A stretch of 64,000 nt of DNA from Balamuthia mandrillaris (lineage: Eukaryota; Discosea; Longamoebia; Balamuthiidae): contig JAVKOQ010000005.1 of NCBI GenBank assembly GCA_031835245.1, positions 491,850 through 555,849 on the forward strand. Direction: 5' to 3'. Every line of letters starts with the position of its first letter. Positions within the stretch are counted from its first letter, which is position 1. A program made the position numbers and the translations under genes. This document shows, piece after piece, positions 1,915-29,171 of the stretch. The notes beneath the pieces are model-generated. The model saw nothing but the letters and a program-made list of their open reading frames with translations. It was not told the origin of the DNA and searched no databases.

Positions 1915-1995
1915 GTCGACAACAAAATCACAATTCTCATGTCGTCGTATCTGTCGACAACACAACGAATTTTTTCATGTCGTCATCATGTCGAC
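1915..1995. promoter_or_regulatory. GTCGAC triad upstream of COQ8
   Basis: Three copies of the palindrome GTCGAC at 1915, 1953 and 1990 (spacing 38 and 37), interleaved with CATGTCGTC half-like motifs at 1939 and 1976. They sit 60-140 bases upstream of the COQ8 start codon. The same kind of triad is found at 15299-15347, 18988-19037 and 29103-29171, each time in the 5' region of a gene. A DNA-binding factor site is inferred. Confidence 0.55.
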
Positions 1996-2053
1996 GATAA
2001 AGAAACGATAAAAGAGAAAGAAGGAAACGAAAGAGAGAAAAGGAGGAAGAGGA

Positions 2054-2891
2054 ATGGCCAGCGCCGCCGGGGGTGGCGTTACTTTATGTTGTCGCGGAGG
2101 CGGCCGCGGTGGTGGTGGTGGCAGTGTCTTCTTCTTTGTTTCCAACCGTCTACGCGTCACTTGCCGTCGTAGCCAAAGTCATCTCTTTCCACCTCCTCTT
2201 TATCTACGATCGTTCTCAACTTCTCCCTCTTCTTTTTCTTCTTCTTCGTCTTCTTCGGAGGACGTCGCCAGAGTGGGTCTAGGCTTCGGTCTGGTGCTGG
2301 ACGCTCTCTCCCAACAACGCACCCTGCTGCACCGCAGCTCCTCTTCCTCCTCTTTTCTTTTCAGCTCCCCTCCTCTACTTGCCTCTTCCTCTCCTCCTCC
2401 TCCGCTCCTCACCGTCGACCCGTTGAGCCAACGATCGGATCCTCTTCCTCATGAAGCACAAGAAGAAGAAGAAGAAGAAGCGAGCGTGAAGCCCGCTGAA
2501 AAGGTTTCCGGTGAAGCGATTGATCCACACAAAGACTCACCAGCGGGTTCTTCTTCTTGTTCTTCTTCTTCTTGTTCTTCTTCTTCTTCTTCTTCTTCTT
2601 CTTCGATGACAACAAAGAGAGAGACAGAAAGGAGGAAAGAGGAGGAGGAAGAGGAGACAAAACAGCAACAACGAGTCGCGAGGAGGAACCCAAAAGAAGC
2701 GGAGGAGAAACGAAGAGCGTATCTGCGCGAGCAACAGGTTTGTTTTTTTTAAAAACTTCTTCTTTCCTCTTTTTTTTTGTGAAGAGACGAACCATTTGTC
2801 TCATCAAAAAATAGCAACGAATGGAGCAACATTCGAAGCAACGCGCTGTGCCTTCTTCGCCGTTATCTCGTCTTTGGCACTTCGGAGGTTA

Positions 2892-2932
<41 letters not shown>

Positions 2933-2943
2933 CCTCTTCTCTG

Positions 2944-2976
<33 letters not shown>

Positions 2977-4903
2977 TTAAATCATTTGCTTGTGTGCACG
3001 TTATAGGATTAGCAGCAGGAATGGGAATAGGCGCGGTGGGAGAGCTGCTCAAAAGGAGCGTTGGCGCTGGGACTGAAGTGGAAGGCCTCTCTGGTCGTGC
3101 CCCTGCCATGGTCAATGAGGCCAATGCACGTCGCCTCACCAAAACTTTGGGAAGGATGAGAGGTGCTGCCCTCAAATTGGGACAAATGCTGTCCATACAA
3201 GGTTCTCCTTCTCATTCTCCTTCTTCGTTCTTCGTTCTTCGTTCTTCGTTCTTCGTTCTTCGTTCTTCGTTCTTCGTTCTTCGTTCTTCGTTCTTCGTTC
3301 TTCTTCTGCTTCTGCTTCTGCTGCTTCTGCTGCTTCTTCTTCTCCCTATGATTCTCCCTCTTCTGCTTGCTTCTTGTAGTTCTTGCTTTTCTGATGCCCA
3401 AGCAAATGTTTCTTAGACAATGCTTTGATTCCTCCTCAATTCACTGAGATATTAGATTCTCTTCGCTACAGCGCCGATCGTATGACCGACAGCCAACTTT
3501 ATGTAACTCTTTCTTCGCTCCCTATCTCTCTTTCTTCTTTTCTCTATAAAATCCTCTTCGTTAACGTTTCTTGCTCTTGTATAGCAAATGATGGAGGAAG
3601 AGTTAGGCCCAGAATGGCGCAACCACTTTATCGAATTCGACCCCATTCCCATCGCCGCTGCCTCCATCGGCCAAGTCCATCGTGCTGTCATCCCTTCTTC
3701 GTCCTTCTCTAAAGACAACAGCAACCACTATAACGCTAAGGATAGCGATGTAATGGAAGTTGCAGTCAAAGTACAATATCCAGGAGTAGCGGAGAGTATC
3801 GTTAGCGACTTGGCAAACCTGAATCGGCTGTTGGGCTGGTGGTGGGGAGCTGCGCTCCCCAAAGGAATGTACTTTGAGAATACAGTCAGAGTGGCGCAGG
3901 AAGAGTTGTTGGCAGAATGCGACTATGAAAGAGAAGCGCACTGTCAAATGGTATTCTTCATTTCTTTTTACATTGAAATGTTTCTGTTGTTTTCTTTTCT
4001 TCTTGCTTTCGCTCCATTTCTTCGTTGCTAACTTAAGTTCAAAATGACAGAGAATGAGGCAACTGTTGGAAGGAGATGAGGCTTATGTGGTTCCAAGAGT
4101 AATAGCTCCTCTCAGCACAAAACGTATTCTGACGACGGAACTCGTGTCCGGCGTTCCCGTTGAGAAGCTTAAAGATGCCGACCAACAAACTCGAAATCAT
4201 GTAATTTTGCTTTCTTCTACCTTCTCTTTGCTTTTTGATACTTACTGTTCTTTTCTGCGCTCTCTCAAGGTGGCGTATCACATGCTGCGATTGAGCTTAA
4301 GAGAGTTGTTCGAGTTTTGTTTCATGCAAACCGATCCCAACTGGTCCAACTTTTTGTGGGATGAAACAACCAACAAAGTACTCCCTTTCTTCTCTCTTTT
4401 CTCTCTATCTCCTCTCTTTTCTATCGCACTCTAACTTTCTAACAAACGAAAACAAGTTATGCCTTTTGGACTTTGGTGCAACCCGCGAATACTCCAAAAC
4501 GTTCATCCACAACTACTTACGCGTGGTGCGCAGCGCCGCTCAACAAGACAAGAACGGCATTCTCTCCGCTTCCACCGACCTAAAGTTTTTGACGGGAGAG
4601 GAGACGGCTCTCATGAACGAGGCCCACTGCTCCGCCGTCATGATCCTCGGCGAGCCCTTTGCCGAGCGCGGCGTGTTTGACTTTGGCAAACAGAATGTGA
4701 CGAAGCGGATTCATCAGCTGATCCCGACGATGCTGCAGCATCGGTTGACGCCGCCGCCGACGGAGACCTACTCGCTGCATCGAAAGCTGTCGGGAGCGTT
4801 CTTGTTGTGCGCCAAGCTGGAGGCCAAGATCGAGTGCAAAGCCATGTTCGACGCCATTTGCGCGCGCGCAGAAGTTGCGTTAGCGGAGGAGAAGCAGAAG
4901 TAA
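2054..4903 (+). CDS. COQ8: COQ8/ADCK3-type atypical kinase-like ATPase (coenzyme Q biosynthesis)
   Basis: UbiB-family ATPase needed for ubiquinone synthesis at the mitochondrial inner membrane. Exons: 2054-2737, 2815-2887, 3007-3201, 3417-3502, 3585-3950, 4051-4200, 4270-4377 and 4457-4903, giving 702 residues. The KxGQ signature is present ([13 protein letters not shown]), as are the alanine-rich loop that replaces the usual glycine loop ([13 protein letters not shown]), the ATP-binding lysine block (VAVKVQYPG), the ECDYEREA motif, the [12 protein letters not shown] catalytic loop and the metal-binding [10 protein letters not shown]. The first 230 residues are low-complexity, rich in Ser, Arg and Glu, and probably include a mitochondrial presequence. 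The small second exon supplies the family block [15 protein letters not shown], so the region 2738-3006 is two introns and not one. Intron 2 has (CT)n; intron 3 holds a 7-base minisatellite. A GTCGAC triad precedes the gene. Confidence 0.95.
3221..3304 (+). repeat. CGTTCTT heptanucleotide minisatellite in COQ8 intron 3
   Basis: About a dozen near-perfect copies of the 7-base unit CGTTCTT between the splice donor after 3201 and the TTCTGC/TTCTTC-rich stretch before the acceptor at 3416. The unit is pyrimidine-rich on the coding strand, like the other intron repeats here. Confidence 0.85.
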
Positions 4904-5031
4904 AAAAGAACTTGAAAACTTTTTTCAGTTCATTTTTTTTTTCGAGATTTTTATGAGAAAAAAGTTGGAAAGAAAAAGCGATTATAGCTTTGTTGTAGTT
5001 TTATTAATCGTCAAACACGGAAAGGAAAGAG

Positions 5032-5911
5032 ATGCAGCAAATGGATAGAAGCAGAGCACAGCCGCTACCAAGCCCCTTTGATGCAACATGCTTCATAGGC
5101 AAAGGAGCGCTGAGCGAGGCGGAGTGTCTGGGGCTTATCGCTCGCATCGAGCAGCCGCTAAAAATCGACACGACCGCTTCCTCCGATGCGGATAACGTTC
5201 TTCGCGTTGTCGAACGAACCAGCTTGCAGGTTTGTCCGTGTTCTTCTTCCCTTCTCTTTCTGGTCTTCAAGAACACGAACAAATAAAAAAAAATTTTAAA
5301 AAAAGGATGAAGAACTGGCCAGCTTCTTGTTCGACCGCGTCTCTCCCTTTTGTCCTTCCGCATGGACGGTTTCCTCCGAGGACGAGCACTTGGGTCCGTT
5401 CTCCAAAGGAAGCTGGCGGATCGACAGCGTCGACGCCCGCATCCAACTCTACCGCTATCATGCCCCTGAAGGTCTCTTCGGGCGCCACAGGGACAAACCG
5501 ACCTTGCATTCCCTCCACAAGCGTTCTCTCTTCACGGTGCTCGTCTACTTGAACAACGACTACAAAGAAGGGCAAACGGTCGTCTATTCGGAAGGAGAAG
5601 ACGAGGAAGAGAAATACTGTAAAGTGCCGAATGACGGCGTTGGCGATTGCTTTGTGATGTTGCAAAGAATGTTGCACGAAGGGAGTCGAGTGGAGGAAGG
5701 CACCAAGTATGCTTTGCGGTGTGATGTCTTGTACAGGAGAGAAGATGAAAAAGGAGTGGAAGACGTGGGGGAGGGGGAAGAGGATGAAAAGGAGAGAGCG
5801 AAAAAGTGGTTCCGATTGGCGAGTTGTTTAGAGTTGTCGGGAAAAATTGAGGAGAGCGTTGGGTATTATAGGAAAGCTTACAAACTTGACCCTGATCTTG
5901 TTGCTGAGTGA
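5032..5911 (+). CDS. 2-oxoglutarate/Fe(II)-dependent oxygenase with C-terminal TPR-like helices
   Basis: Probable prolyl-4-hydroxylase-type dioxygenase using Fe(II), 2-oxoglutarate and O2. Exons 5032-5229 and 5306-5911 give 267 residues. The region IQLYRYHAPEGLFGRHRDKP has the first iron ligands as HxD (H-R-D), and TVLVYLNNDYKEGQTVVY is the following strand pair. The distal histidine and 2OG-binding basic residue fit LHEGSRVEEGTKYALRCDVLY. The last 50 residues (WFRLASCLELSGKIEESVGY, then YRKAYKLDPDLVAE) resemble one TPR hairpin. The substrate is unknown. The gene starts 128 bases after COQ8 and ends 97 bases from the stop of the next, convergent gene. Confidence 0.75.
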
Positions 5912-6008
5912 AAATAAAAAGAAGAAAGAGAAACGAAGGAAAGAACGGAAGAAAGGAAGGTCTTTACTTACACAAAACAAAAATGTATCTTTCTGTTCCA
6001 AAATGATG

Positions 6009-8839
6009 TTAATGCTGTTGAGTTCCGCGAGTTGAGTTTGTTAGCGTCTTTTTCTTTCTCCAAGACGAAAACGAAGAAGGAGAAAGTGGTTGTCGATGCC
6101 GGCGTTGTTGTTGTTCTTTTTCTGCCTCTTGCTGTTGTCGCTGATTGCCTTCTTTGGTTGCTGTCGTTGTGGTTGTTCGACTTCTCCGTTTGAGCCAATA
6201 TTTCTTGAAGAGATTGACATAAGCGATTTGGGCTGGATTTCGAAGAGTGTTTCCTGGCCGAGCTGCTCTTGTTAGGTTGATAGCATCATTGACGTTCATT
6301 CCAAGAGCCACTAACAAACTGACGACTACCATTGCGCTTCTCCCTTTTCCTCCGTTGCTATTTTGTTATTTTTTTAATAAAAAAAAAGAGGATTAGATGA
6401 AAGAAAGGAGAATAGAAGAGAGAGAGAGAAAGGGTGTACCAGTGAACAACGATGCATTTTTCTTGTTTTACTTCTTCCATTAATAGCCGAACTAGTCGTA
6501 TCAACATTTCCATTTCTCTTGGCAGCCATTTATCTTTTGGTTGCAGATGTAAAGAAGGGAGATGAACGCAGAAAGGAAGCGGAAGAGGAAATCGTACCAG
6601 TAATAGGAACCCAAATAGACTTGATGCCATGATTTTCCACTACTCTGAAAAAGTTGGTAATGCCCATAGCGTCCAGCTCTTTTTGTTGGACCAACGTTAC
6701 CAGCACATCACATCCAAACTCTTCCTTCAACCGTTTCATATCTTTGTACAGATCTCTTTGATGTCGCTTCTTGTTGCGACCTGGGCAACAACTTATTCCT
6801 ACTTTTGCTTTGTTGTTCTTAAGTAATGAAGAAGATGCAGTAGGCGAAGTGGAAGAAACAAAAGTAGAAGAAGGAGAGGATGATGGCGATGGAATGGTTG
6901 AAGAGGGAGAAGCAGGCGACGAAGAATCATGAAGAGAAAGTCCGATGAGGCTTTTGAAGGCCGGAAGAAAGTCAACTTGATAAGGTTCAGAGTCCGAAGT
7001 GACGAGCTGTAAAGGAGTGGAAGAGATGTGCTTATTGCTGGAGAGTTCCATTTGTCGCAGCTGTTTGTGCCGTTGATAGTCTGCGCAGTGCATCAGAAGT
7101 TCTCTAGTGGCAGTAGACTTGGCCAAATCGGCTGGTCTGCGTCCATATTGGTCTGTTGTTTTCCAGCAAAAGGGTGAAGAGAGAAGTGAGAAAAATAACT
7201 AATGGGGAAACAAAGACAAGAGAAAAAGGAAAAAAAGCACAAGGACAAGGATAACGCGACAGAAGAAGAAGAGAACGAGAACGAGAACGAGAATATGAAC
7301 AAAGCAAGGAAAAATGCACCAGTGCTAAGCACAGAAGCTCCACTTTTAACAAGCAACGTAACAAGCTCCAAAGAATCCGCCAACAAAGCTATACTCAACG
7401 CCGTAAATCCGCTGTCATCCGCTTTGTTTACATCAGCTCCAGCCTCCAACAGAAGAGAGGTCGTTTCCAAGTGACCTTGCTCTACAGCTGCGTGAAGGGC
7501 GGTCGCTCCAATCATGTTAGCTTTGTTCACGTCAGCTCCGCTCTCTAAAAGTGATTTAACGACTTGAGTTTGTCCTGTGTAAGAGGCCAAACTCAGTGGT
7601 GTTATCCCGGTTACGTCTCCCTTGTCCACCTGTTATTGTTTGTTGGCAATGAGAAGAGAGAAACGAGAAAAGAGTGAAGGAGAGAGTAAGAGAATTGAAT
7701 AGTGAAAAGAGAACGATAGGCAGAGATGAAAGCATTGAGGAGAGAAGGGAAAGGAAGAAAGAACAAACAAGGACGCCAGGATGAGCAAGCAGCAGAGCTA
7801 CGGAGTCTTCTTGGCGGTTCTGTACAGCAACATAGAGAGCCGTTCTGCCAACTTTGTCCTGTTCATTTACACCAATGTCCTCTGTCGTTGATTTTGTGTG
7901 TCCGAAAGCACGAAAATAAGATAACAAAGAACGAAATAAAGAAAGAGCAAGAGAAAAGAGAAAGAGAAAGAGAAAAAGAAAGCATCAAGAGAATAGAGAG
8001 CCGAGAGGAATAGAGAGGAAGAGTAACGCGAGAGAGAGGAAGACAAAAAGGAGAGAGAGAAGCCATACCACACTGCAAAAGTTTAGACAGTATTTGGGGT
8101 TCCGCCTCTCTAACGACCACCAACAACAACGGCTCGACCTCTCCTCCGCCTCCCTCTGCCTCTTCTGCCTCTTTCTTCCTCCGCTCCGCAGCGGCTTTGT
8201 AAATGGCGAGTCCAAACCTTCTCAGCAGCCCCTCCATTTGCGTGGCCCTCTTTCCGGCCAGCACTTCCGTCCTTCTGTTTCGTGCCAGCCTCTCTTCATG
8301 TTCTTCCTTCTTTGCTTCTTCCCCTTCTTCTTTCTCTTTTTTGTCCTTTACTTCCTTCTCCTCCTCCTCCTCCTCCTCCTCCTCCTTCTTCTCCATCTCC
8401 GTCTCCTTCTCCTTCCCCGTCTCCTTCTCTCCTTCTCCTTCTCCGTCTCCTCCTCCTTCTCCATCTCCTTCTTCTTCTCCTTCTCCTTCTCCTTCTCCTC
8501 CTTCTCCTCCTTCTCCTCCTTTTCCTCCTCTGCTTCTCCTTCTTCCATTTGTTTTCCTCTGCTGCTGCATAGACTCAGAAATGATCGAATGTCCTCTTCC
8601 GTGATGTTCTCCTCCGCTTGTGCTACTTTGTCTGCTGCCTCTTTGGTGGTGGTGGTGGAGTTGGACCGGCTGAGTGCCAACAAGTTTTCAGTGTGGCTCC
8701 TTTGGCTCCTTGGGGAGAGCTTCCAGTTTGAAGGGAGGAGGGAAGAAGCAGAAGGGGGAGAAGACTGCGAGGATGCAGTTGAGGCTTCCGGTAGGCTTTC
8801 TTCTTTTTGTTTGTCTTCATCACCTTCCGCTTCTTCTTC

Positions 8840-8871
<32 letters not shown>

Positions 8872-11091: not shown

Positions 11092-11104
11092 TTGATGATG
11101 ATTA

Positions 11105-12434
11105 CTATTGAAACAGTCCTTCCGTGTTATATATATGAAGAGGGTCTACAGATTGGTCTTCTTCTTCTCCTTCTCCTTCCTCTTTGTGCTTCTTTTTCGT
11201 TCTGCCAAAAAGCTCTTCCAAACGAGTTCTGTTACTTTCATCCTTTATCGTGTCTTTCTTCACGAACACTTCCAAAAGGACGTTCATGTCTGTTGGAAGG
11301 CGTGACTCTTGAGTGCGGTCTCCTTTTTCTTCTTTGTTGATCATGGTAATTGAAGGAAGAGGGTATGCCTCCACGGAAACATCTATGTCCACCTCCCACC
11401 GTTCCATACCGATACTATCCATTTCTTTTCGCAGCTGTGCATGATGACCTGTGATATTTTGTCAGTAAAAAGTTGCCACTTCAGTTTCATTCCTCCTTTC
11501 TCATCGTTCTCTTTTGTTCTCTCGCTAACCACTTCTATGATCTTACGTGCCATAAACCCGCTCGTGAAACGCAAGAATAAAGACAGCCCACGGATCGCTC
11601 TTGCTCAGTAAACGCTGCACAGTGCAGCCAAGACCTTCAAAGTCTGTCATGTGATAGATAATATCAGCTGCAACGATGACCTGGAATCCTCCATCACTTA
11701 CTGCCTCCTCCTCTCTCCTTTCCTCTGTTTGCTCTCGAAGAAGTTTCTCTATGGCCTCTTCCTCTCCCCAAACGAGTTGCAGTGCGTGCAGCGATTGTGG
11801 TTCCGTTTCTGTCAGTTCCTTCTCTTTCCTTTGTGCTCGCCAACATGTTAGGTTGAGGTCGATGTTGTGTTTAAGCAAAGGCAAGACTGTGGTGTCCGCA
11901 TCTGTCATCACCACTTTGGTTGCTCCTAGGGCTCCACAGACGAGACCCACTAATCCCGTTCCACAACCGAGCTCTACCACAGTTCTATTGTTTTCCCAGG
12001 AAAGTGAGCAATTCATTCAACAACGAATGACATTCCAGTTAACAAACGACATAAAAAGAAGAAGAAGAAGCAAAAGAAGAGGAAGAACAATGAGAAGAAG
12101 AAGAACAAGAACAAGAAGAAGAAAAACAAGAAGAACAAGAACAAGAAGAACAATAAGAAGAAACAGAAGAACAAAACAACAAAATCAGAACGAAAGGAAC
12201 AACAATGAAACAAAAGAAGTAGCACAACACAAAACTGTAACAGCTTTACTTGCGTTGGATCAAGTGAGGCTTGCCGACCAAGTAGTGCGTCAAAATGCTG
12301 GCGGAAGGCCAGAGGACATGGCTGGTGGGACAAAAAGAGGACTGATATTCCTTTCTCACAGCCGCGCTGAGGCGCTTGCTGTCCACACTCACGCGAACGT
12401 TCCTCTCCGGCCACTCCACCGTGGTTCTTTGCAT
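11105..12434 (-). CDS. Seven-beta-strand lysine methyltransferase (METTL21/FAM86 type)
   Basis: SAM-dependent protein (lysine) methyltransferase of the Methyltransf_16 group. Exons 12434-12250, 11984-11558 and 11434-11105 give 313 residues. The SAM-binding motif I is VVELGCGTGLVGLV, the acidic loop is VVMTDADTTVLPLL, and the post-motif reads VIVAADIIYHM, which occupies the family's active-site DxxY position. The WPSASILTHYL block before motif I is also typical. Intron 2 (11435-11557) happens to be largely open in another frame and could be mistaken for coding sequence; splicing at HER|LRKEMDS keeps one continuous frame. Intron 1 carries a long (TTCTTG)n-like tract. The protein substrate is not predictable. 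Confidence 0.85.
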
Positions 12435-12871
12435 CTCTCTCTCGTCTCTCTCTTGTCTCTCTCTACCCTTTTGACTCCCGTTACCCCGTTTAAGGTAGAG
12501 GCCTTAAATTTCTATTGCGTATTATGGCGTTCACTCCTTGAAATACGTGGCATGCTTGGCATTCTTTCAAAAAAGGTGTTGAATTTTTGTCGACAAGAAA
12601 GATCTCCACCATAATGTCTTTATATGGTAAAAGTAAAAGCTCATCTTTGATTGTTGATTGGTGATTTGATATTTTACGGAATAATGCCCGAACGAATTTC
12701 AGGAATGTGGGTCGTTCCGTAAATTTACCTTTAAACGGAAATGAAAAGGCAATCAATAGACTAAAATTGAATGCTTGGCAGGTAACGCTGACTTTACCCG
12801 CACGAGATTATTCTGGCATTTTCAAACCCAGCGTAACTGCTGAACAACAGAGCTTGAACTTTGGAACTACC
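12435..12871. other. Divergent intergenic region, methyltransferase / sulfotransferase 1
   Basis: About 437 bases between two divergent start codons. The frame of sulfotransferase 1 stays open upstream to 12707 but lacks an ATG before 12872. No repeat, RNA gene or GTCGAC site is seen. Confidence 0.5.
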
Positions 12872-14947: not shown

Positions 14948-15298
14948 TAACAGCAGCAGAGGAGTTTGTGTAAGATGAGAGATATGTAAAAGTGTCTTAG
15001 AGAGAAGCAGCTTTTATTGCTCAAGCCACCTGGACGGTCCTTTTTCCTCTGACAACAGGTTGAAGGAATGACTAACATCCAGAGGTGGCATAATGACATT
15101 GACGGAAGGAATACAGAGCAACAACCGAAGCACGTCGAGACAAGGAAACAAGCTCTCCACCGAGGGTCCTTCGATCAGTTTTCTCATCAATGCACAACGG
15201 CTGTTCTGCGCTCTTCAAACGAATGGCTGCTCTTCCCGCAGCAGCACTTATAGCCTTCAACGACTTTATGGTCTAATAATGAACCAGGCACAATTACT
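14948..15298. other. Intergenic, sulfotransferase 2 to kinase-like gene
   Basis: 351 bases holding the 3' end region of sulfotransferase 2 and the distal promoter of the next gene. No gene or repeat is seen; the GTCGAC triad begins at its right edge. Confidence 0.5.
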
Positions 15299-15347
15299 GT
15301 CGACAATTGTGTCTGTAACGTCGACGTGAAAGATAATATATGTCGAC
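15299..15347. promoter_or_regulatory. GTCGAC triad upstream of kinase-like gene
   Basis: GTCGAC at 15299, 15320 and 15342, spaced 21 and 22 bases (about two helical turns), 31-79 bases before the ATG at 15378. The outer copies read TGTCGACA. The close, even spacing suggests side-by-side binding on one face of the DNA. Confidence 0.6.
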
Positions 15348-15377
15348 ATCAGCAAAGAAAAAACCCTATTGTTGGAG

Positions 15378-16916
15378 ATGAAAACCGATCGGCTTGTGCT
15401 GCTCTGCAACCTCAGGCCTGCTTTGTCTTCTACTTCTTCTTCTTCTTCTTCCCTACGACTGGCGACTCCGTACTCCTCCTTTCCCTCGCACGCTTGCTGC
15501 ACGCTTTCTCCCACGAAAAATTGGACATCCTCTTCTGCAGTTTTCGCTTCCAGAAAGATTTCTTCTTCGTCTTCTTCGTCTTCGCTTTCCTGCTCAGCAG
15601 CGTCACCGGCGAGAGAGTTTTGGCAGACCCAAGAGAACTTGAAAGGGAAGCACCAGGAGGCCCTCAACAGCACGGAGGAAAAGCTTCACTTTGTGTTCGT
15701 GGAAGGCCCAGCGGGCACCGGCAAGAAGGACTTCCTGTGGCGCTTGCGCAAGATCGGGTACCGCGTGCTTCATGGCCACTCTTTTGTTCCCCTTGCCGCT
15801 CAGGTTTGTCCTCTGTCTGTTCTGTTTGATTTGATCAGTTTCTTTGGTTTTCCATCCTTTCTTTCTTGTGGCCTACTCTCGTTCCCTCTTCTCTCCTTCT
15901 CTCTTCACTTCTCCTAACGCTCACTCTCGTTTCGTGCTTTCTTCCTACCGGCGTTAAAACAAAAAAAAAAATGGGCAGCTGGATTATCATAAAGCAAACA
16001 CTAGGCTGCATGCTCAGGTTGAATGGACACAACGACTTTTGTCAGGTCTTAGAAGCCTTAAGAATGAAGCTTTGGTACTTCTTCTAATTGTTCTTCTTCC
16101 TGTTCTTCTTCGTTCTTGTTCTTCCTGTTCTTGTTCTTGTTCTTGTTCTTGTTCTTGTTCTTGTTCTTGTTCTTCTTCTTCTTCTTGTTCTTCTTCTTGT
16201 TCTTGTTCTTCTTCTTGTTCTTCTTCTTCTTCTTCTTCTTCTTCTTCTTCTTCTTCTTCTGCTTGTTTTAAACTCTAATACGCTCAATAGGAAATACAGA
16301 CGAAACAACAACAACCTACATTCAAAGACAACATTGTATTTGTGCATCGCAGTCCTCTTTCCTCTTATCTTCGTTTGCGACACGAAGAGGAGGCCAAACA
16401 AGGAATAGCCCCTTCTTCGAGCCGCTTCTTTTTGGAGCTGATGAGAGAGTGTCAGAAAGAGTACAGCACCTCTCTGATTGTTTGTAAGTCGGACATAATT
16501 CGCATGAAAGAGCGTTTAGCTGAGAGATACTTTGATGCTGAGCAAGAAAGCGAACAGGTTCATTCCATCTTCTCTTCTATCTTGTTATGTTTCCTTCCTT
16601 CTTCCGTCTTCATTAACAAACCCTAACAGAGAATAAGAGAGCTGTTGGGCGAACAAAATGAGGACGAAATGAACAAATGGGTTCAACTCTACAACAAACT
16701 CGCTGAAGACCAAAGCGAAGGACCAGTGGACGGAATTGTGGACACCACCTCCACCAAACAAGCCGTCGCCCAAATCTTGAAACTCTACGGCATCGAGATG
16801 AAATGGTTCGTTTGCTTTTCTTTTTCTTTTTTCTTTTTATTTGCATTTCGTAACTTTGTTTCATGTTTTTTTGTTTTAAAAAAAGGGTATTTACGCAGGA
16901 ACAAGTCTTTCGTTAA
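15378..16916 (+). CDS. P-loop kinase resembling deoxynucleoside kinases
   Basis: Exons 15378-15803, 15979-16074, 16291-16557, 16630-16805 and 16886-16916 give 331 residues. A Ser-rich N-terminal stretch of about 80 residues could be a transit peptide. The Walker A is FVEGPAGTGKKDFLWRLRK, with Lys where many family members have Ser/Thr after GK. Next comes DNIVFVHRSPLSSY, which resembles the ERS motif of deoxynucleoside kinases, and SDIIRMKERLAERYFDAEQE, which resembles the arginine-rich lid. Intron 2 has a long (TTCTTG)n stretch (16105-16262). The family call is tentative: a nucleoside or nucleotide kinase is likely, but the substrate is not shown. The stop is 73 bases from that of the convergent TMEM184 gene. 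Confidence 0.55.
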
Positions 16917-18777: not shown

Positions 18778-18987
18778 TTTTTTTAAATAAAAATAAAAAT
18801 AAAAACAAACTAACGGATGGTTAGGAAGGCAAAGGAAACAAGAGAGAGGTGTGTTTTTGAATGAAGCGTGTCTACGCGGGTCCGACAAGAAAGGTCGCTC
18901 CCCCCCTTCCTTTCAGCTTTTTTCTTTCTTTTGGGTGGGGACGTTCCTGCACTCTCTGCCTTTGATTTTTCTTCATTGATTTTTCAG

Positions 18988-19037
18988 GTCGACATTACGA
19001 AATTTTCCATGTCGACATGATCGATGCATTTGTCGAC
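18988..19037. promoter_or_regulatory. GTCGAC triad in the TMEM184 / DNA methyltransferase divergent promoter
   Basis: GTCGAC at 18988, 19011 and 19032, spaced 23 and 21. The last two read TGTCGACA. It lies between start codons at 18777 (minus) and 19268 (plus). Nearby at 19078-19100 are ATGACGTGG and GATGACATCATC, which look like CRE/AP-1-type sites. Confidence 0.6.
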
Positions 19038-19267
19038 ATAAAGTAAAAAGCCCGTCGGGTAATTTCATTGAAGGGGATGACGTGGCTTTACGATGACATC
19101 ATCACCACTCTCTTGTCCTCTCTCGTGGCTTATCTCTCGTCCCACTATCAAATCAATAAAAAAGAAAAGAAAAGAAAAGAAAAGAAAATCAGATTTTGTG
19201 GAAAGCGATTTTTATTTATTTTGTTGATGATTTTTTATTTTTGGTTAGTGGAGAGCAGAGTACTGGA

Positions 19268-20076: not shown

Positions 20077-20125
<49 letters not shown>

Positions 20126-22596
20126 GGTCTTGCGTTCTCTCTCTTTCTCGTTCCTTCTTTGCTTCTGTCATTCTCTGCTTCTCTTTCTGTTTCTCTTCTC
20201 TCTCTGTTCTGTTTCTCTACTCACCATGGCTACAGCCCAAAGCCAAATTGGACCCAACTGGACGAACGGTTTTGCTACAACTGGACTCTGCCACATTCCA
20301 AACTTCAAACAGCCATCACAATCGTCATCAACAACCAATACAAAAGAGGGTGTGGCAATCGGATGAGCCCATTCCTTGGCGTTGGCGAGACCGTGATCGC
20401 AAGCTTTGGTTTCCAAGACCTCCTCAATTCACTCTTCAAGATGGTTTCTACACTCCTCTTAGCATCTACACTCCTCCTGATAGACAGGAAGAAGCAGAGG
20501 ATGAGTACATCACAAAGGCAAAAGCGAGACATGACAGACCACTCATGGAATTGTTGCAAACGGATTCGTTCTTGTTAAAACAATGGAAAGAGATGCACGC
20601 TCCAAAGCTGAAACCCAAACCAAAGTCGTGGTTGCTATCGTTACAAAGACAAAAACAACAACAAGAACCAGAACGGTCACGAAAGGTACCATTTACAACA
20701 CCAATAGCAACAAAACGGAAAGAAGTAGAACAAGAGTCGCTGATGGAGGAATACCATAGTCAAGAAGTAATGCAGGGGGTAGAAATATTGTGCGAGTCAC
20801 AAGGCGACGAAGAAGAAGAAGAAGGGTTTAACGACTCGCAATCAAGTCAACAATCCAGCTCGTCGGCGTCATCGATAGAAAGCTATCCGTTACGAAGACA
20901 AGAATCTGACCCTGGATACTTTGCTGCTATCATTCCTTTTTCTTCTTCTGACTCAGATGAGGAGAGAGAAGACGAGGAAGAAGCAGAGCATAACAACGAA
21001 GACAGAGAAGACAAGGATGAAGAAGTGAACCTAGCTGAAGAAGACAGCGAAGAGAAAGTGGAAGAGGAAGCGGAAGAAGAAGAAGTGGAAAAAGAAGAAG
21101 AAGAAGAAGAAGAAGAAGAAGAAGAACCTCAAACGTTGAAGCGAGGAGAGGATATCGTTCTTAAGACAGAGAAGATAAGAAAAGCAGGAACGCAAGAAGA
21201 GGCTATCGTTCCAAAGAAGCCTTCTCTCAATTTTGATTATCATCCTCTCAGTCAACAACAACAGTCTTCTGTGTCGCTCTATTCAACAACAGCAATGACA
21301 ACCCCGAAGCAACGCAAAACTAGATCACAACGTAAAGTGTTTTCGCAACCGTCTTCATCTTCAACTTCGTCATCACAATCATCGTCTTCTTTTCACAACA
21401 TTTCTAATTTTTTCACCAGAGTTAGGCGAGAAGAAGATAAACAGGATCCTCTAGCTTTTTTATTTCAAAGCTTTGAACGAGACAAAGAAAAAAGACAATT
21501 GCGAAGTAGTCAAGACGAAAACGAAAAAGACAAGGAAACGGAAAAGGAAACGAAACGTAAACGTAAAAGAATCAGAAAACCACAAGTTGTCTCTTCCCCA
21601 AAACCATCTTTGTGTTCTTCTTCGCCGCAACCTCGTCACAAGCGTCGACGTTCTCAAGATACTCTCACGTGCTCTTCCGCCAACATTCTTCGCTTCAATG
21701 AAAACATTTCGTCTTCGCAATGGACCCAGAATACTCCTCGTCCCGTCAAGAGAGGTTTCTTGCTTTCGCTTTTCGTTCATTTGGGTTCTTCTTTTCTGAG
21801 CTTTACTTCTTGGCAGGCTTACGAGTGCTTTCGTTATTCGATGGCATTTCTGGAGCTTATCATGCATTACGTCTTTCTGGAGTTCCTATTGCTCAATACC
21901 TCGTCTCAGAGATTGATCCTCACTGCTTGCGTCTCACGAAACAACGCTTGGGCAGCATTTGCGAGTTTTTGGGAGACGCTAGGCTGCTTAACGGAGCTGA
22001 GTTGATTGCCAAGTATGGTCAAATACATCTTCTTTTTGCAGGATTTCCTTGTCAAGGTTTCTCTTTCTTATTTCTGTCCTTCTTATTGTAATTCTATGTT
22101 CTTGTTCTTATCCTTTACACTGAATTCGTGGACAAACAGACTTGAGTTTCTTGAACCGGAACAGACAAGGTCTACGCGGAGACCGCAGCAAATTGTTTTA
22201 CGAGGTGCCACGTTTGTTGGAAGAGCTGGAAGCCGTCCAAGGCTTCTGCCCTTACTTTATCGTGGAGAACGTGGCGAGCATGTCGCCCAAAGATAAAGCC
22301 TTGATCACGGACGCCTTGGGCGTTGTGCCAATCTTTTTGGATGCGCAGCGCTTTTCGGCAACATCACGGTTCTTTCTGCTTTCTTCTTTGTTTTATCATC
22401 TTAGTTTCTTCTCCACATGAGCAGCTAACTTTTTTTCTTTTCCTTGTAAACAGAAAGCGATTTTATTGGGTGAATATCCCGCAGTTCCGTTTCCAACCTA
22501 AACACATTAAGCTGCAAGATATGTTGGATCCTGGCGGCACCGCTATCACCATGAAAGCAGCCTGCATTACCAGTTTGTTCAATTCTTCGCCTCATA

Positions 22597-22657
<61 letters not shown>

Positions 22658-23863
22658 TGTTCTTCTTCTTCTTCTTCTTCTTCTTCTCGTTATGCTTCTA
22701 TCCTTTTTTTCTCTTTTCTAACAACAGTAATAACAGCTGGAAATCATTTGGCATTTGTAAAGTACACCAACGAATATTATTCGGATCCAAGGGTGCAACA
22801 ATCTCTGCGGAGGTACAACCTGGTTAAAGATGCCACAGAGGAAAATGGGTTTAGGGGCCTTCGTACGACAGAGGTCGAACGCCTCTTAGGTTCTCTCCCT
22901 CTATCCTTTCACCTTTCTTTCTGTTTCTTTGTTCTTGTTCTTCTTTTCTTCTTTCTCCTATCTTCTCTCTTCTCTCTTCTTGCCTCTTTCTTTTTCTTCT
23001 TGTTCTTCGTTCTTCTTTCTCTTGTTCTTCTTTCTTCTTTGCCTCATCATCAAATAACAATATTCGTTTTAAGGCTTTCCAAAAAATTGGACCAACTTGA
23101 ACGGGGTCAGCAGGCAACAACGAAACAAAATGCTGGGCAACAGCTTCTCCGTTCCGGTGATAGCCGGTTTGCTTCGCCCGTTGGCATGGCGCATGGAGGG
23201 CCCGGAGCACAACGTCCTATCCAAGATCAAACGGCGCGTGGTCGCTCAACAAACCCTCACTCAGGTCTTTCCGAGAGCTGCTGCCCCTCCTCTTTCTCCC
23301 TCTGACGAACGACAGCTCTTGTTGGAAGCAGCAGAGGAGGAAGAAGCAAGAGCTCGACAACAAGTTGGAGAAGAAAAAGAAGAGGAAGTGGAAGAGGAAA
23401 AAGAGAAGGAGAAAGAAGAGGAGGAGGAGGAGGAGGAGGAGGAGGAGGAGGAGAAGGAAGAAGAAGAAGAAGAAGAAGAAGAAGAAGAAGAAGAAGAAGA
23501 AGAAGAAGAAAGAAAGAAAGAAGAAGAAAGAAAGAAGAAAGAAAGAAGAAGAAAGAAGAAAGAAGAAGAAGAAGAAGAAGAAGAAGAAGAAGAAGAAGAA
23601 AGAAAGAAGAAGAAGAAGAAGAAGAAGAAGAAGAAGAAGAAGAAGAAGAAGAAGAAGAAGAAGAAGAAGAAGAAGAAGAAGAAGAAGAAAGCACTCTGGA
23701 AATGATGGAGGAAGCTTATGAAAGACCGTCCGGAGAGTGGAAGAACGAACCAGAAATGGAGTGGAAGACGGATAGTCCGATCGACGTCTTTTGGGTTCGT
23801 CCTTCTGAGGATACTAACGACGACTGCGAAGATGATTGCAAATGGGAGAGAATGTATGAATAA
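19268..23863 (+). CDS. Dnmt3-type DNA cytosine-C5 methyltransferase with N-terminal OB-fold-like region
   Basis: Exons 19268-20038, 20236-21754, 21817-22056, 22140-22368, 22454-22572, 22728-22889 and 23074 onward. The C-terminal half is a C5 methyltransferase closest to Dnmt3: RVLSLFDGISGAYHALRLSG (motif I), SEIDPHCLRL (II), FAGFPCQDLSFLNRNRQGLR (IV, catalytic Cys), YFIVENVASMSPKDK (VI), ATSRKRFYWVN (VIII) and RNKMLGNSFSVPVIAGLLRP (X). The N-terminus lacks PWWP or ADD domains. Instead it has VVVLRDPSRERDAWGCVVEP followed by LHALPGTVLLLSN, resembling the OB fold of HROB-type (DUF4539) DNA-repair proteins, then 500 disordered, acidic residues. The final exon runs into a long GAA repeat, where the assembled frame ends in poly-Lys and ALWK (stop at 23703-23705); another frame continues to 23863 as an acidic tail (STLEMMEEAYERPSGEW...). 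Confidence 0.85.
23410..23692 (+). repeat. GAA/GGA microsatellite in the last exon of the methyltransferase gene
   Basis: Nearly 280 bases of pure purine, mostly (GAA)n with GAAA interruptions that move the reading frame between Glu-, Lys- and Arg-coding registers. Its length decides which of two C-terminal ends is read. Such a tract is prone to slippage and to assembly error. Confidence 0.95.
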
Positions 23864-24056
23864 AAGGCCACTTGCTTTTTTTTATAGCGCGAAACGACGT
23901 TTCATGTTGTTTGAATTTCGATTGGTGAAATATACCTTCAACATCCAATCGTAATTCATATTTTCAAATTGCGAACATATATTAACAGAAATATTAAGAG
24001 AAAAAAGAAAAACAAAGCAAAGGAGTCTCTCCTTTGCTTTTTTTGAAGCACCGAGC

Positions 24057-24665
24057 ATGCAACAAACAGGAGGAGACAAGAAGGCAAAGGTCTTGTTGGT
24101 GGTGGATTACACCACCAATTGGTACGCCAAGTTCGCCAAAGCAACGCTGCGCGATGGCACTCCCATTCGCGTCGAACAAACCGAATGGAAAGACATGAAC
24201 GTTGAGGCGAGGTTCCGCTTTTCTCTCTCTCTCTCTCTCTTGTCGTTCTTTCTTTCTTTTTCGCGTTTTGAAATAAAACTAAAAGCAAGAGAACACAACT
24301 AGTTCTGAAGAAGGAGCTGTGGTGCATTTGAAAGCGTCGGAGAACCCGCTGCCGTTCTCGACGCAAAAGGAGGAGCGAACGGTTCGTCCTGACTTTATGC
24401 TGGTGCGTAATTTTCCTGGAGACTTGCACGACAGTAGGTCCGTGTCCCGACCCGAAGCCGTTTTCGCTTCTTCTGTTTTTTTGCTTCGTTCGGGTCTGTT
24501 CTGATGGAAAGCGATAACAGCTTTAAGAACATGGTGGTTGGCCTTTTGTTTGGCAACGTTCCTGCTGTGAACACCATCGAGTCTATTTATCGCTGCATGG
24601 ACCGTACGTGTCCCCTGCTTCTCTTTCCTCCTCGAGAACAGTCTCTATGCTTCTTTGCTCCCCTC

Positions 24666-24708
<43 letters not shown>

Positions 24709-24734
24709 TCTCCTTGTTGGAGGCAACGTTTTCA

Positions 24735-24794
<60 letters not shown>

Positions 24795-25804
24795 CCTTCA
24801 CTCTCATTCTCTTTTCTTTCATGCTTATTCTTATCTCTTAGGGCCGGTGGTTTATGCTGAAATGCTAAAGATACAACGCAAACTCAGGAAAGAAGGGCTG
24901 GACTTTCCCATCATCCCGATGAACTACTATCCCAACCTTCGAGCCAGCACCCAACAACTCCTGTCGCCTTCTTTTCCAGCCGTCATCAAAGTGTCGAGCA
25001 CTCATGCCGGTTCGTGCTCCTTGAAGCCTTCAATCTGTGTTTGCTGCTGACCTCCTAAACTGTTTCGATTGTTTTTCTTTGTTCTTCTTCTGCTTCTTCT
25101 GCTTGTTCTTCTTGTTTTTCTTCTTCTTCTCTTCTTTGACAAACAGGTTACGGTAAAATCCAAGCAAAAGATGCCAAGGAAATGCAAGACGTTCAATGCG
25201 TTCTTGCTCTTCATAGCGACTATTACACGTATGCCTTTCTTGTTCTTCTTCTGTTTCTTTCTTTCTTGTCGTTTCTTTCTTGTAGTTTCTTTCTTGTCGT
25301 TTCTTTCTTTCTTTCTTGTCGTTTCTTTCTTGTCGTTTCTTTCTTTCTTTCTTTCTTTCTTTAACATAAAAAACTACAGAGCAGAACCATTCGTTCCTCA
25401 CGAGTACGAGTACCGCATCCAGAAGATAGGGAACCACTACAGGGGCTTCCGTCGCAACTCGGACAGCCATTGGAAGAACAACTGGGGCGCCCTTCAATTC
25501 GAGGACCACCCATTGACCGAGTTGGACAAGAGATGGGCGGACGAGGCCGGTCTGCTCTTTGGAGGATTGGACATCTTGGCTTTGGACGTGCTGCACAAGG
25601 AGGATGGCACCAATGTCATTCTGGAGCTCAACGACACTGCTAATGGTTTGTGTTCTTCTTCTTCTGTCTTCTTCTCCTTCTTCCTAAACTTTTTGCTTCT
25701 CGTTCTTAAACAAAGGTTTAATGTATGACCACGAAGAAGAAGATTTGGGGCACATCAAAGACATTGTGTTACAAAGAATGAACGACTTGTTTTGTCCTGA
25801 ATAA
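24057..25804 (+). CDS. Synapsin-like ATP-grasp protein
   Basis: Exons 24057-24211, 24303-24437, 24512-24603, 24842-25009, 25147-25228, 25380-25645 and 25716-25804 give 328 residues. Synapsin C-domain blocks are recognisable in order: KVLLVVDYTTNWYAKF (N-terminal strand, like the VVDEP..DWAKYF block), RPDFMLVRNFPGD, NSFKNMVVGLLFGNVPAVNT, FPIIPMNYYPNLR, FPAVIKVSSTHAGYGKI (the phosphate-binding loop), YTAEPFVPHEYEYRIQKIGN, NWKNNWG-like HWKNNWGALQFED, FGGLDILALDVLHKEDGTNV and ILELNDTANGLMYDHEEEDL. The P-rich D/E domains of animal synapsins are absent. The ATP-grasp fold implies ATP binding; a vesicle role is known only in animals and cannot be assumed. Introns 3 and 5 are CT and TTTC repeats. Confidence 0.85.
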
Positions 25805-25836
25805 AACAAATAAGATGTGTCCTTCTTCCTCTTTCT

Positions 25837-25969
25837 CTTGTTCTTCTGCTTCTTCTTCTTCTTCTTGTTCTTCTTCTTGTTCTTCTTCTTCTTCTTCTTC
25901 TTCTTCTTCTTCTTCTTCTTCTTCTTCTTCTTCTTCTTGTTCTTCTTGTTCTTCTTCTTCTTTTTCATT
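25837..25969 (+). repeat. TTC microsatellite between convergent genes
   Basis: A (TTC)n tract with a few TTG units, 33 bases downstream of the synapsin-like stop and about 80 bases from the stop of the convergent mitochondrial-protein gene. The gap 25805-26047 holds nothing else that I can see. Confidence 0.9.
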
Positions 25970-26047
25970 TGTATGTCACAACAGTGTTTCTCTTGGATTG
26001 TGCGATAGAGAGGAACCTTTGAAAGAGTTAACTGTACAAAGGAACCT

Positions 26048-26985
26048 TTATTGGTCTTCACCTTCTTGTTGCACTTCCTTGAGATGTTTGTTCTTCTTGT
26101 CTTTCTTTTTCTGCTTCTTTTTCTGCTTCTTCTTTTTCTCCTCTTTCTTCTTTTTCTTCTCTTTCTTCTTCTTTTGTTTTCGTTGCTTGTCTTCCTTTTC
26201 GTCGTCAGACCCCATGGAATCATCATCTTCTTCTTCGTCTTCGTCTTCGATTTCTGCTGTCGCGCCCTCTTCCACCATTCGCTTTGCTTTGTCTTCCCTG
26301 TTGTGTTGAAGTTTGTCAGTTGCTCTTCTTTTACGGCAACAAAAAGCAAAAAAGACAAAAACAAAATATACTTCAAAAAAAAAAAAGAGGATTATACGAA
26401 CACCTACTCTGCTTTTCGGTCCGACGCTGTCAGTTGTTGCTGCTCCTCCTCCTCTTGTGTTCTTCCTCCTTCATTCTCTTCTGTAGTTGTTGTTGTCGTT
26501 GAGGTTTCAGCACGCTCGCCGCCCTCCTCATTTTGTTGCTGCTTCTTGCTCTTCTTCGTCTTTGGTCGGTCGTAAAAGTCCTTGGCGAACCAGGAGGAGT
26601 CCTCCTCCTCCTCCTCCCACCGGAAAAAGTCGTTCCAGTGCAGCTCCAAGGCCCGGTTCCACTTGCGCCGGACCGAGTCGTTGAGGACGGCGCTGAGGGG
26701 CACCTCCCTCTCCTCGGCGCGGCACTGGAGGGCCCTCCCCACGAAGCCGAAGCAGAGCAGGCCCGTGGCGGCGCAGGCAAAGGACAAGGCACGCAGGGCG
26801 TGGACCTTGTTCTTGGAGAAGGCCTGGGAGGTGGAAGAGGAGGAGGCAGAGTAGCTACGACGGAGGAGAGAGGAAGAGGAGAGCGAAGACGGGGAGGCAA
26901 GCGAAGCGGCGGCGTTGGAGCGCGACGACGGAGCGAGGAAGGAAGAGCGGAGGGAGAAGGCGGCGTGGCCAGGGAGTCGTTGCAT
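26048..26985 (-). CDS. Predicted mitochondrial single-pass membrane protein, lysine-rich tail
   Basis: Exons 26985-26408 and 26297-26048 give 275 residues. The first 50 residues (MQRLPGHAAFSLRSSFLAPS, then a Ser/Ala/Arg-rich stretch ending LLRRSYSAS) are a textbook mitochondrial presequence with an R-x-Y/S cleavage-like site. One hydrophobic helix follows (LRALSFACAATGLLCFGFVG). The next segment, VLNDSVRRKWNRALELHWND, is the only part that looks like a conserved domain, followed by acidic, Gln/Thr-rich and finally Lys-rich low complexity. No family recognised. Divergent from the next gene, with a single GTCGAC at 27196 between them. Confidence 0.65.
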
Positions 26986-27330
26986 GATCCAAGGAAGTTT
27001 GGCCGCAAGGAATGGGATTTTTGGAACGAAGAGAAAGGACTTGGAAAGTAGTTTTTTTTTTGTTTTTTGAAATGAGGGAGCGTTGAGTGCTCGCGTGTCG
27101 CAAGTTCAGCCGTAGGTTTGGCGGCGGTGACCTTGTTTCTCTCTGTTTGCTGCCACTTTGTTTTCTTTTTTTTGGTTTATTTGTTAATTATTTTCCGTCG
27201 ACAAACGAATTTGGGAGGTCGCGGTTCGAATCTCAATGTGTGCAAAAAAATTTTTGTAAAAACAAAAGCGTGGGGATGGGAGTCGAACTGGCGCCAGTTG
27301 GGACAAAAACAAAAAGAAAGATAGAAAAAA

Positions 27331-27855
27331 ATGAGTTGGTGGCGGAGCGCAAGTAACGACAGCAACAAGAAGGAAGCGGCGGCGGCGGCGGACGCCGCGA
27401 AGAAGAAATCCCCCTCGCCCCCGCTCTCTCTCAACCCCACGCCGGAGCAATGCGCCATCTACAAGCTCAACGCTGACTTTGTCATCTCCAACCTCAAATT
27501 TTCGCTGGTGCACCACACCGCCCGCACCGACGGCACCATGCTGAACGCCTGGAAGGAGGAGGAAGCTATGCTCAAAGACCAACTCAAGGTTTGTCTTTGT
27601 TGTTTTTTCTTCTTCTTCTTTTCGTTTCTTACGCAAGCACACACACACAAGGTGCTGGAAGGCTTTCCGGACAACCCTAAGCTGCGTCAGATTCGCGATT
27701 GGTTGAATGAGGACCTGGCAGAGAACCAGCGACACCAGCACGAGACGGTGGAGCCCGAGGAGGTGAAACGGATGGAGCGAATGAGGGACATGCATCGCAC
27801 CATGGTGGACTCTTTGGAGAGCCTCATCCCTCTGCTCAAGGAGAAGTGTCCTTGA
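27331..27855 (+). CDS. Small helical protein of unknown function
   Basis: Exons 27331-27588 and 27652-27855 give 153 residues. After an Ala/Lys-rich start, the sequence NPTPEQCAIYKLNADFV begins a largely helical body (WKEEEAMLKDQLKVLEGFPD, DWLNEDLAENQRHQ, RMRDMHRTMVDSLESLIPLL). No TM segment or signal. The motif PT..QCA(I/L)(Y/F)K is shared with the neighbouring convergent gene at 28150-29035, so the two may be distant relatives. No family recognised. Confidence 0.65.
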   Translation: MSWWRSASNDSNKKEAAAAADAAKKKSPSPPLSLNPTPEQCAIYKLNADFVISNLKFSLVHHTARTDGTMLNAWKEEEAMLKDQLKVCLCCFFFFFFSFLTQAHTHKVLEGFPDNPKLRQIRDWLNEDLAENQRHQHETVEPEEVKRMERMRDMHRTMVDSLESLIPLLKEKCP

Positions 27856-28149
27856 GAAGGATACCTAAAAAGAAGAGATGTTGCTCCAATATTCTTTCTT
27901 TCTTGCTTGCTCCTCTTCTTCGCTCCTTTTCCTCTTCTCCGCTCCTTTTCCTCTTCTCTGCTTCTGTTCTATCTTCTTTTCTTCTGCTTCTTCTTCTTCT
28001 TCTTGTTCTTCTTCTTCTTGTTCTTGTTCTTCTTCTTCTTCTTCTTCATCTTCTTCTCTTCTTTCCTTTCTTTGCTTCTTCTAGAGCATCACGAAAATAC
28101 AGAAAGCAAAGAAGAGAGGAGAGAGCAGTGTTTTTGTGTGGATTCAAAC

Positions 28150-29035
28150 TTACACAGGACAACCTCCTCCTCCTTTTGAAGAAGAAGAAGAGGGCGGTGG
28201 TGAGGGTTGATCCACAAAGCCTAACTTCTTGCAGTGTTCGTCCAACAAGAGCCGCATGAAGGCTGTCGTTTCACAGATCTCTTCTCGTTTCTTCCAAAGA
28301 ACATCTAATCGAGACTTTCCTCTGTTGAACAAGAACACCAACCATTGTCCAACACAATCGAATGAGCGAAGAGACAATAGAGAGAATAAGAGAATGAGCA
28401 AACGAGTCAGGGAAGCTGAGAAGCAAAGGCAGAAGAGATAAGAGAAGAGAGAGAAGAGAAAAGAGAAGAGAAAAGAGAGAAGAGAGAAGAGAGAGAAGAG
28501 AGAGACAGAAGAGAGAGAAGAGAGCGAAGAGAGAGAGGAGGTAATAACTGTTCGACTTGGTCCAACTTCCTTTGCAACAAGGCGTTCTCTCTTTGCAGCT
28601 CTCCCTCCAACCGTCTGCATGAGCATATTTTTTAGAAAAAAAAGAAAAAGAAAAGAAAAGAAAAGGAAAGGAAAAAAGAAAAACAAACCTGCGAGTGGGA
28701 TGAGTAGCAGAGTACTTTTCAAGCGAGGCCATCTGTGCCTTGACCCTCTTCTGCGCCATCTCGTACTGCTCCTTCTCAAAGTCCAGCTTCTCCCTCTGGA
28801 GCGTCTGCTTGTCCTCCCCTTCCTCGTAGAACCGATAGATGCGGTCGATGGAGCGCTTGAAGAGGGCGCACTGCTGGAGGGTCGGCGGAGGGCGGTTGGG
28901 GTCGGGGACCGTTCTGGGGTCGTCCCCTTCGCGGGCCTCCTGCAGGACCCACCCGGCGGAGTGAAGGGCGGCGGGATCCGTGTCCAGGCCCCACTCCGTC
29001 TCTATTTTCTTGATCCCTCCTCGGTCGCTACTCAT
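28150..29035 (-). CDS. Coiled-coil protein of unknown function
   Basis: Exons 29035-28689, 28614-28549 and 28321-28150 give 194 residues. After ETEWGLDTDPAALHSAGWVL comes PPTLQQCALFKRSIDRIYRF, then a coiled coil spanning YEMAQKRVKAQMASLEKYSA, RLEGELQRENALLQRKLDQV and SRLDVLWKKREEICETTAFM, and a Ser/Gly tail. Intron 2 is a 220-base AG-rich microsatellite on the plus strand (CT on the coding strand). No family recognised. Divergent from the SDR gene and sharing its GTCGAC-triad promoter. Confidence 0.65.
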
Positions 29036-29102
29036 TCGATGATCCACGCTTTACTTTTTTTGTTTCCGCTACTCTTTTCTTTTATTTCTCATTCCTTTTT
29101 TC

Positions 29103-29171
29103 GTCGACATTCATTCTTTGCATTTCTTACTTTTTTTGGTACAAAATGTCGACATATGAATAATTGTCGAC
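29103..29171. promoter_or_regulatory. GTCGAC triad in the coiled-coil / SDR divergent promoter
   Basis: GTCGAC at 29103, 29148 and 29166, spaced 45 and 18, between start codons at 29035 (minus) and 29324 (plus). The middle copy reads TGTCGACA. Confidence 0.55.

Follow-up and report, generated by a model that had tools for sequence, protein, structure and literature searches.

GTCGAC palindromes clustered before predicted gene starts, a likely proximal promoter element of Balamuthia mandrillaris

In a 64,000-nucleotide stretch of the Balamuthia mandrillaris genome (G000:C4:491850-555849, referred to as the window; the assembly comprises 64.79 Mb in 775 contigs), the palindrome GTCGAC occurs in four tight groups of three, which raises the question of what such groups do in front of genes. 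The species assignment is supported by two Balamuthia-specific mitochondrial 16S primers (PMC6105249), which match contig C775 perfectly and face each other at a distance of ~230 bp. An earlier note, made from the letters alone, had listed twelve GTCGAC positions in four triads upstream of start codons and ascribed them to cooperative binding of a dimeric factor. We consider it likely that YGTCGACR is a proximal promoter element of B. mandrillaris, that roughly one in five sampled genes has it, as one, two, or three copies at most 300 bp before the predicted ATG, and that it is probably bound by a homodimer, with a bZIP protein as the first candidate. We favor this reading because of the concentration of the motif in 5' flanks, its preferred sequence, its clustering, its genome-wide excess, and one site conserved between duplicate loci.

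Clustering of GTCGAC in the window and the genome

A motif count recovered all twelve positions, in four triads that span 49-81 bp, and seven of the twelve copies have the form TGTCGACA (1915, 1953, 15299, 15342, 19011, 19032, and 29148). Triad 1 (1914..1996) has GTCGAC at 1915, 1953, and 1990, the first two as TGTCGACA and the third as TGTCGACG, with two ATGTCGTC sequences between its sites, and lies 61-136 bp before the predicted ATG of a COQ8-like gene (2054, +). Triad 2 (15298..15348; GTCGAC at 15299, 15320, and 15342) is 33-76 bp before a predicted ATG at 15378 (+). Triad 3 (18987..19038; GTCGAC at 18988, 19011, and 19032) is located in the spacer between two divergent genes, one TMEM184-like (ATG 18777, -) and the other possibly encoding a DNA methyltransferase (ATG 19268, +). 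Triad 4 (29102..29172; GTCGAC at 29103, 29148, and 29166) is likewise in a divergent spacer, with predicted ATGs at 29035 (-) and 29324 (+) on its two sides. All four triads are therefore in 5' flanks as predicted by hidden Markov model (HMM) gene models, as the earlier note had it, and two of them are common to divergent genes. The gene names given in that note fared unevenly in a Pfam scan: COQ8 and TMEM184 are supported by PF03109 (ABC1) and PF03619 respectively, while the scores for the DNA methyltransferase (17.8 bits to PF00145, with a cut-off of 22) and for the SDR (25.5 bits to PF00106, with a cut-off of 26.6) are too low, and the “kinase-like” gene at 15378 had no Pfam match in the two exons scanned.

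What is anomalous in the window is the clustering and not the total count. Its 19 GTCGAC are only mildly high against 200 dinucleotide shuffles (mean 10.7, maximum 19), whereas none of these shuffles contained a triad (three GTCGAC with gaps up to 60 bp) as compared to the four observed. When 19 sites were placed randomly 20,000 times, the probability of at least one triad was 0.006 and that of at least two was 0. Over 264 kb, GTCGAC formed four clusters of at least three copies (gaps up to 60 bp) and any other of the 64 six-base palindromes at most one; the four GTCGAC clusters are all inside the window, and none is present in 200 kb of contig C1. The clustering beyond chance that had been claimed is borne out by these counts.

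Genome-wide, with the motif sequence read backwards as the control, we found 4802 TGTCGACA (control 1236) and 1477 GTCGAC pairs 9-39 bp apart (control 513). The pattern used for triads, which allows 8-38 bases between sites and misses Triad 4, gave 378 matches in contrast to 13 in the control, these being matches rather than genes, as overlapping triads were counted separately and the assembly contains duplicate loci. With four triads, as compared to 378 matches in 64.8 Mb, the window is unusually triad-rich. In a genome search the Triad 3 stretch matched only itself, hence it is not a repeat, and among the matches listed for Triad 1 with its flanks, none but itself covers the triad.

Position relative to predicted gene starts

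Gene starts were predicted by a small self-written splice-aware HMM gene finder, which was trained on the sample and run on the window, on 200 kb of C1 in the form of 20 evenly spaced stretches of 10 kb each, and on five more stretches from C2 and C5, i.e., 314 kb with the window and 250 kb without it. The promoter zone was defined as the 300 bp before a predicted ATG and, with shared bases counted once, amounts to 23.7 kb or 9.5% of the bases in the 250 kb outside the window. With each base again counted once, these zones contain 23 of the 50 GTCGAC (mean 2.6 and maximum 8 in shuffles of the same bases) and 13 of the 20 TGTCGACA (mean 0.2, maximum 2). GTCGAC is present in 23 of the 104 promoters outside the window, roughly a fifth, at a median distance to the predicted ATG of 130 bp (quartiles 92 and 179; 29 site-promoter pairs, shared sites being counted for both genes).

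In the 200 kb of C1, 13 of the 38 GTCGAC are in divergent spacers (13 kb, 1.00 per kb), nine in tandem spacers (24 kb, 0.37 per kb), three in unassigned ends (0.29 per kb), and 13 in exons (116 kb, 0.11 per kb), with none in introns (31 kb) or convergent spacers (5 kb). The 15 TGTCGACA in the same sequence are distributed similarly, with seven in divergent and five in tandem spacers, two in unassigned ends, one in an exon, and none in introns or convergent spacers. For the control palindromes CAGCTG, TGGCCA, and GAGCTC, exons are the commonest or near-commonest place, and TTGCAA is dense in tandem spacers (0.74 per kb). The earlier note had named equal frequency of triads in coding sequence, introns, or 3' regions as the finding that would speak against a promoter role; the comparison, run here for single sites and not for clusters, shows enrichment in 5' flanks over all three, with predicted gene starts, and favors the promoter reading. 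Consistent with this, TGTCGAC is the most significantly promoter-enriched 7-mer apart from A/T runs (56 vs. 28, both strands). A different sequence, AATTAAT, is also enriched in the sampled promoters (16 vs. 7).

Among 140 promoters, 107 contain no GTCGAC, 21 contain one, six contain two, and six contain three; for the 104 outside the window, the corresponding numbers are 81, 17, six, and zero (a shared spacer was scored for both of its genes here, which gives 29 GTCGAC and 17 TGTCGACA in the 104 promoters). Singles, pairs, and triples form a continuum, and the triads are its tail and not a class of their own.

Preferred sequence, spacing, and conservation

The base before GTCGAC, read on both strands, is T 56, C 14, G 4, and A 0 times among the 37 promoter copies (74 sides), and T 28, C 17, G 11, and A 8 times among the other 32 copies. 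The preferred form is YGTCGACR, with TGTCGACA as the best form. When the one-letter variants of TGTCGACA are grouped into 12 classes, the promoter bias is strongest in CGTCGACA, in which the outer T has become C (10 in promoters, eight elsewhere); the bias is perhaps kept in GGTCGACA (four and four) and TATCGACA (three and six), and not clearly in the other variants. The letter before the 8-mer core is A in 39%, G in 12%, and T in 41%, and an R/Y flank is therefore not required. Mixed half-sites are conspicuous in Triad 1, but in the sample they show no clear enrichment in promoters (TGTCGTCA 5 vs. 18, ATGTCGTC 4 vs. 12), and GTCGTC occurs once in the 42 listed spacers outside the window.

These 42 spacers separate the listed neighbor pairs outside the window, after removal of one row (C2:395099, spacing 28) with another site in between. 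Twenty-nine of the spacings are 13-25 bp; 24 are 16-24 bp (12.2 expected if flat) without a single peak in this range, two are 26-34 bp (12.2 expected), and eight are 35-39 bp (6.8 expected). Genome-wide, the 26-34 bp count, which includes non-neighbor pairs, is 374 as compared to 429 if the 1477 pairs were spread flat over 9-39 bp, so that the scarcity of 26-34 bp spacings noted in the first contigs does not extend to the whole genome. Strict 10.5-bp helical phasing is supported neither by the listed spacings nor by the genome-wide count, and a loose preference for close packing is possible. Of the dimeric cooperative binding that the earlier note had read from the spacings, the part that stands is the palindrome, which would suit a dimer; the helical phasing does not.

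Duplicate loci in the assembly offer a further view of the element. In the diverged pair C82/C236, ATGTCGAC is retained in the 5' flank while its surroundings differ at many positions; the site is ~600 bp before the ATG of a bZIP gene and, judged by eye, ~100 bp from the apparent start of a divergent neighbor. This retention is suggestive of conservation of a 5'-flank site. The other two aligned pairs have no 5'-flank site, and each has one coding GTCGAC, in one copy only. For the window genes, a duplicate of the COQ8 promoter was not present among the scored candidates (40 of 947), and a search for a TMEM184/DNA methyltransferase duplicate gave three partial matches (74-80%) confined to the coding part of TMEM184. 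As to the duplicate loci themselves, L034/L035 are nearly identical, L027/L028 and L032/L033 have very similar coding sequences and clearly diverged flanks, and L040/L041 are a further duplicate pair. They may be either diverged haplotypes or products of an old duplication, and would be useful for footprinting promoters.

A simple mechanism could be drawn from these features. One homodimer of a sequence-specific factor would probably occupy each 8-bp palindrome, and the symmetry of the site would allow it to act on the two genes of a divergent pair alike. Multiple copies may raise occupancy, either additively or by loose cooperation, with no fixed helical phase. The element would support general rather than pathway-specific transcription, and the factor would most likely be a bZIP with a basic region unlike that of the plant F-group.

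Target genes, candidate binding proteins, and alternatives

The gene families with the motif in their promoters include Arf, PPR, ADP-ribosylglycohydrolase, PIP5K, TSR2, a proteasome subunit, protein kinase, SDR, ADH, sulfotransferase, lysine methyltransferase, TMEM184, and COQ8, and thereby look like general cell functions. Zinc transporter or nicotianamine synthase families were not found among 33 motif genes, of which one exon each was scanned. Pfam matches at E ≤ 0.001 were obtained, again with one exon per gene, for 17 of the 23 motif genes outside the window as compared to 14 of 27 controls (34 controls had been drawn, and the seven in the window were left out), which is no clear bias (Fisher P = 0.15).

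Our first guess for the binding factor, by analogy, is a bZIP protein, followed by a BED-finger protein. A bZIP is favored because the same 8-mer is a plant bZIP site, because TGACGTCA is promoter-enriched, and because bZIP genes are present in the genome. The palindrome TGACGTCA, known as the cAMP response element (CRE), is the site of CREB/ATF-type bZIPs; like TGTCGACA it is an 8-bp palindrome enriched in Balamuthia promoters (six vs. three elsewhere in the 314-kb sample), and it differs in its half-site, TGAC instead of TGTC. As for plants, RTGTCGACAY is described in two papers as the site of the Arabidopsis F-group factors bZIP19 and bZIP23 (PMC5476651, PMC9643250). FD, another Arabidopsis bZIP, is linked to a GTCGAC motif by chromatin immunoprecipitation in a further paper; there the same hexamer is bound in vivo, yet as one of three FD motifs in a single promoter, that of FT, beside a C-box and an A-box (PMC13360168).

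A profile search found 15 bZIP_1 matches in the Balamuthia genome, and the basic regions at 14 of these loci (all except L037) are of the NRES type, the N-x2-AA-x2-FR kind, and others. One group, comprising L029, L031, L036, L038, and L039, has the basic region NR(K/Q)AA..FR(K/R)R and seems expanded in this genome.

Several observations weigh against the promoter element and its assignment to a bZIP. The F-group basic pattern N-x2-AV-x2-YR is found in none of the 14 bZIP loci read, and TGTCGTCA is at most weakly enriched, though enrichment would be expected if half-sites of bZIPs of the CRE type and the plant type were mixed. Divergent spacers are likewise rich in the CRE core GACGTC (0.69 per kb). 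The outer Y is preferred but not strict, as the equivalent of A (T after the core) occurs at nine of the 84 inner sides of the 42 listed pairs. Further, the promoter zone misses 27 of the 50 GTCGAC in the 250 kb, as well as one pair (L002:3315/3334), and 13 of the 38 in C1 are in predicted exons. The gene starts are predicted ATGs and not annotated ones. A coarse check with open reading frames (ORFs) of at least 100 aa, which cover 75% of the bases, agrees in direction with a weaker contrast: GTCGAC is found 31 times inside and 19 times outside these ORFs (ratio 1.8), and TGTCGACA eight and 12 times (ratio 4.3), while eight other palindromes have ratios of 0.5-1.2, except TGACGTCA with 4.4. 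Lastly, the conservation is based on one site.

Instead of a bZIP, the protein on the same promoter element might be a dimer of the BED-zinc-finger kind, as are Drosophila DREF and human ZBED1, which we regard as unlikely though worth keeping in mind. According to one paper, these self-associating proteins act on proliferation and some ribosomal-protein genes through TATCGATA, the Drosophila DNA replication-related element, and TGTCGYGAYA respectively, i.e., CG-centered palindromes of 8-10 bp in growth-related promoters, of which the human site starts with TGTCG and the Drosophila site is two symmetric letters off TGTCGACA (PMC6179265). The general look of the sampled targets would agree with such a factor, as would nine zf-BED (PF02892) matches in the genome, one of them in a 214-aa frame on C15. 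Four of the nine, however, have equal scores and appear to be transposase copies (C21, C141, C430, and C742; three frames of 691 aa and one of 662 aa), perhaps of a hAT-like family. Besides the differences in two letters (Drosophila) or in length (human), TATCGATA is rare in the 314 kb (one in a promoter, one elsewhere), and TGTCGCGACA, the only form of TGTCGYGAYA counted, is absent there.

It is rather improbable that the 5'-flank signal is something other than a transcription-factor site, such as a replication origin, a chromatin boundary, a mark for DNA methylation, or a signal within the 5' untranslated part of the RNA. The symmetric CpG in the site and the possible C5-methyltransferase gene adjoining Triad 3 would be in line with it, but a promoter site for a binding protein agrees better with the nearness to predicted ATGs, the strict sequence, the presence in divergent spacers, and the variation in copy number.

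Another alternative is a genuine zinc-deficiency regulon that shares its origin with the one in land plants, where a zinc-sensing F-group bZIP binds zinc-deficiency response elements (ZDREs). We regard this as very improbable, and the sequences do not support membership in the plant system. The 8-bp palindromic core is identical, and several copies per promoter are also found in plant ZIP genes, with one to four and mostly two in promoters of the ZIP4 group (PMC5476651). A search with an F-bZIP query, however, found nothing convincing in the genome (best E = 0.01) and no F-bZIP-like protein was found, nor is the outer R/Y of the plant site required in Balamuthia. The two green algae covered in the same paper have no F-bZIPs either (PMC5476651). 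The plant regulon is small, consisting of zinc transporters and nicotianamine synthases, and fewer than 20 genes changed in the double mutant (PMC9643250), in contrast to the 23 of 104 promoters of mixed genes here; the sampled targets are Arf, proteasome, TSR2, PPR, PIP5K, and similar genes, although ZIP-transporter promoters were not looked at. Finally, chance, base composition, or a repeat family can practically be dismissed, because the near-expected total in the window is outweighed by the shuffles without a triad, the genome-wide excess, and the self-matches in the flank searches.

Returning to the promoter element, the statement in the earlier note that no such element is known in protists is uncontradicted among the literature matches listed, but the 8-mer itself is the core of the land-plant zinc-deficiency element. 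No description of Balamuthia promoter elements was found among the open-licence literature matches listed, and the words “promoter” and “transcription factor” are absent from the main text of the 2023 Balamuthia annotation paper (PMC10471605). The design is of a known kind, and it is remarkable that the core is identical to that of the plant element. We tentatively raise the possibility, without holding it to be the probable outcome, that an amoebozoan uses the exact plant zinc-deficiency core, in homotypic clusters, as a general promoter code for many of its genes, and that the dimeric factor reading this code recognizes it by a surface unlike that of plant F-bZIPs. This would be convergent evolution of one bZIP-type recognition sequence and a new class of general eukaryotic promoter element. 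It raises the question of whether amoebae and plants arrived at TGTCGACA independently, and via which protein surface. Balamuthia is a lethal opportunistic amoeba, and the element, being short, frequent, and palindromic, would make its regulator directly purifiable and provide an anchor for gene annotation.

The remaining seven GTCGAC in the window are intergenic in two cases (12589 and 27197) and in predicted exons in five (2414, 5429, 21644, 42205, and 45402). The former two are a single TGTCGACA (12588..12595) in the divergent spacer between ATGs at 12434 (-, Methyltransf_16) and 12872 (+, Sulfotransfer_4), and a single CGTCGACA (27196..27203) in the divergent spacer between predicted ATGs at 26985 (-) and 27331 (+). 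The TGTCGACA at 45401-45408, which the gene finder assigns to an exon within a long gene model (42414-45713, -), may instead mark a missed gene start. Elsewhere in the window, 23370-23690, 16078-16268, and 3203-3392 are simple repeats or low-complexity sequences common to very many genome loci, and a 98-bp stretch upstream of Triad 1 (1700-1797) has a 94% identical inverted copy at 49287-49384 (G000:C4:541136-541233).

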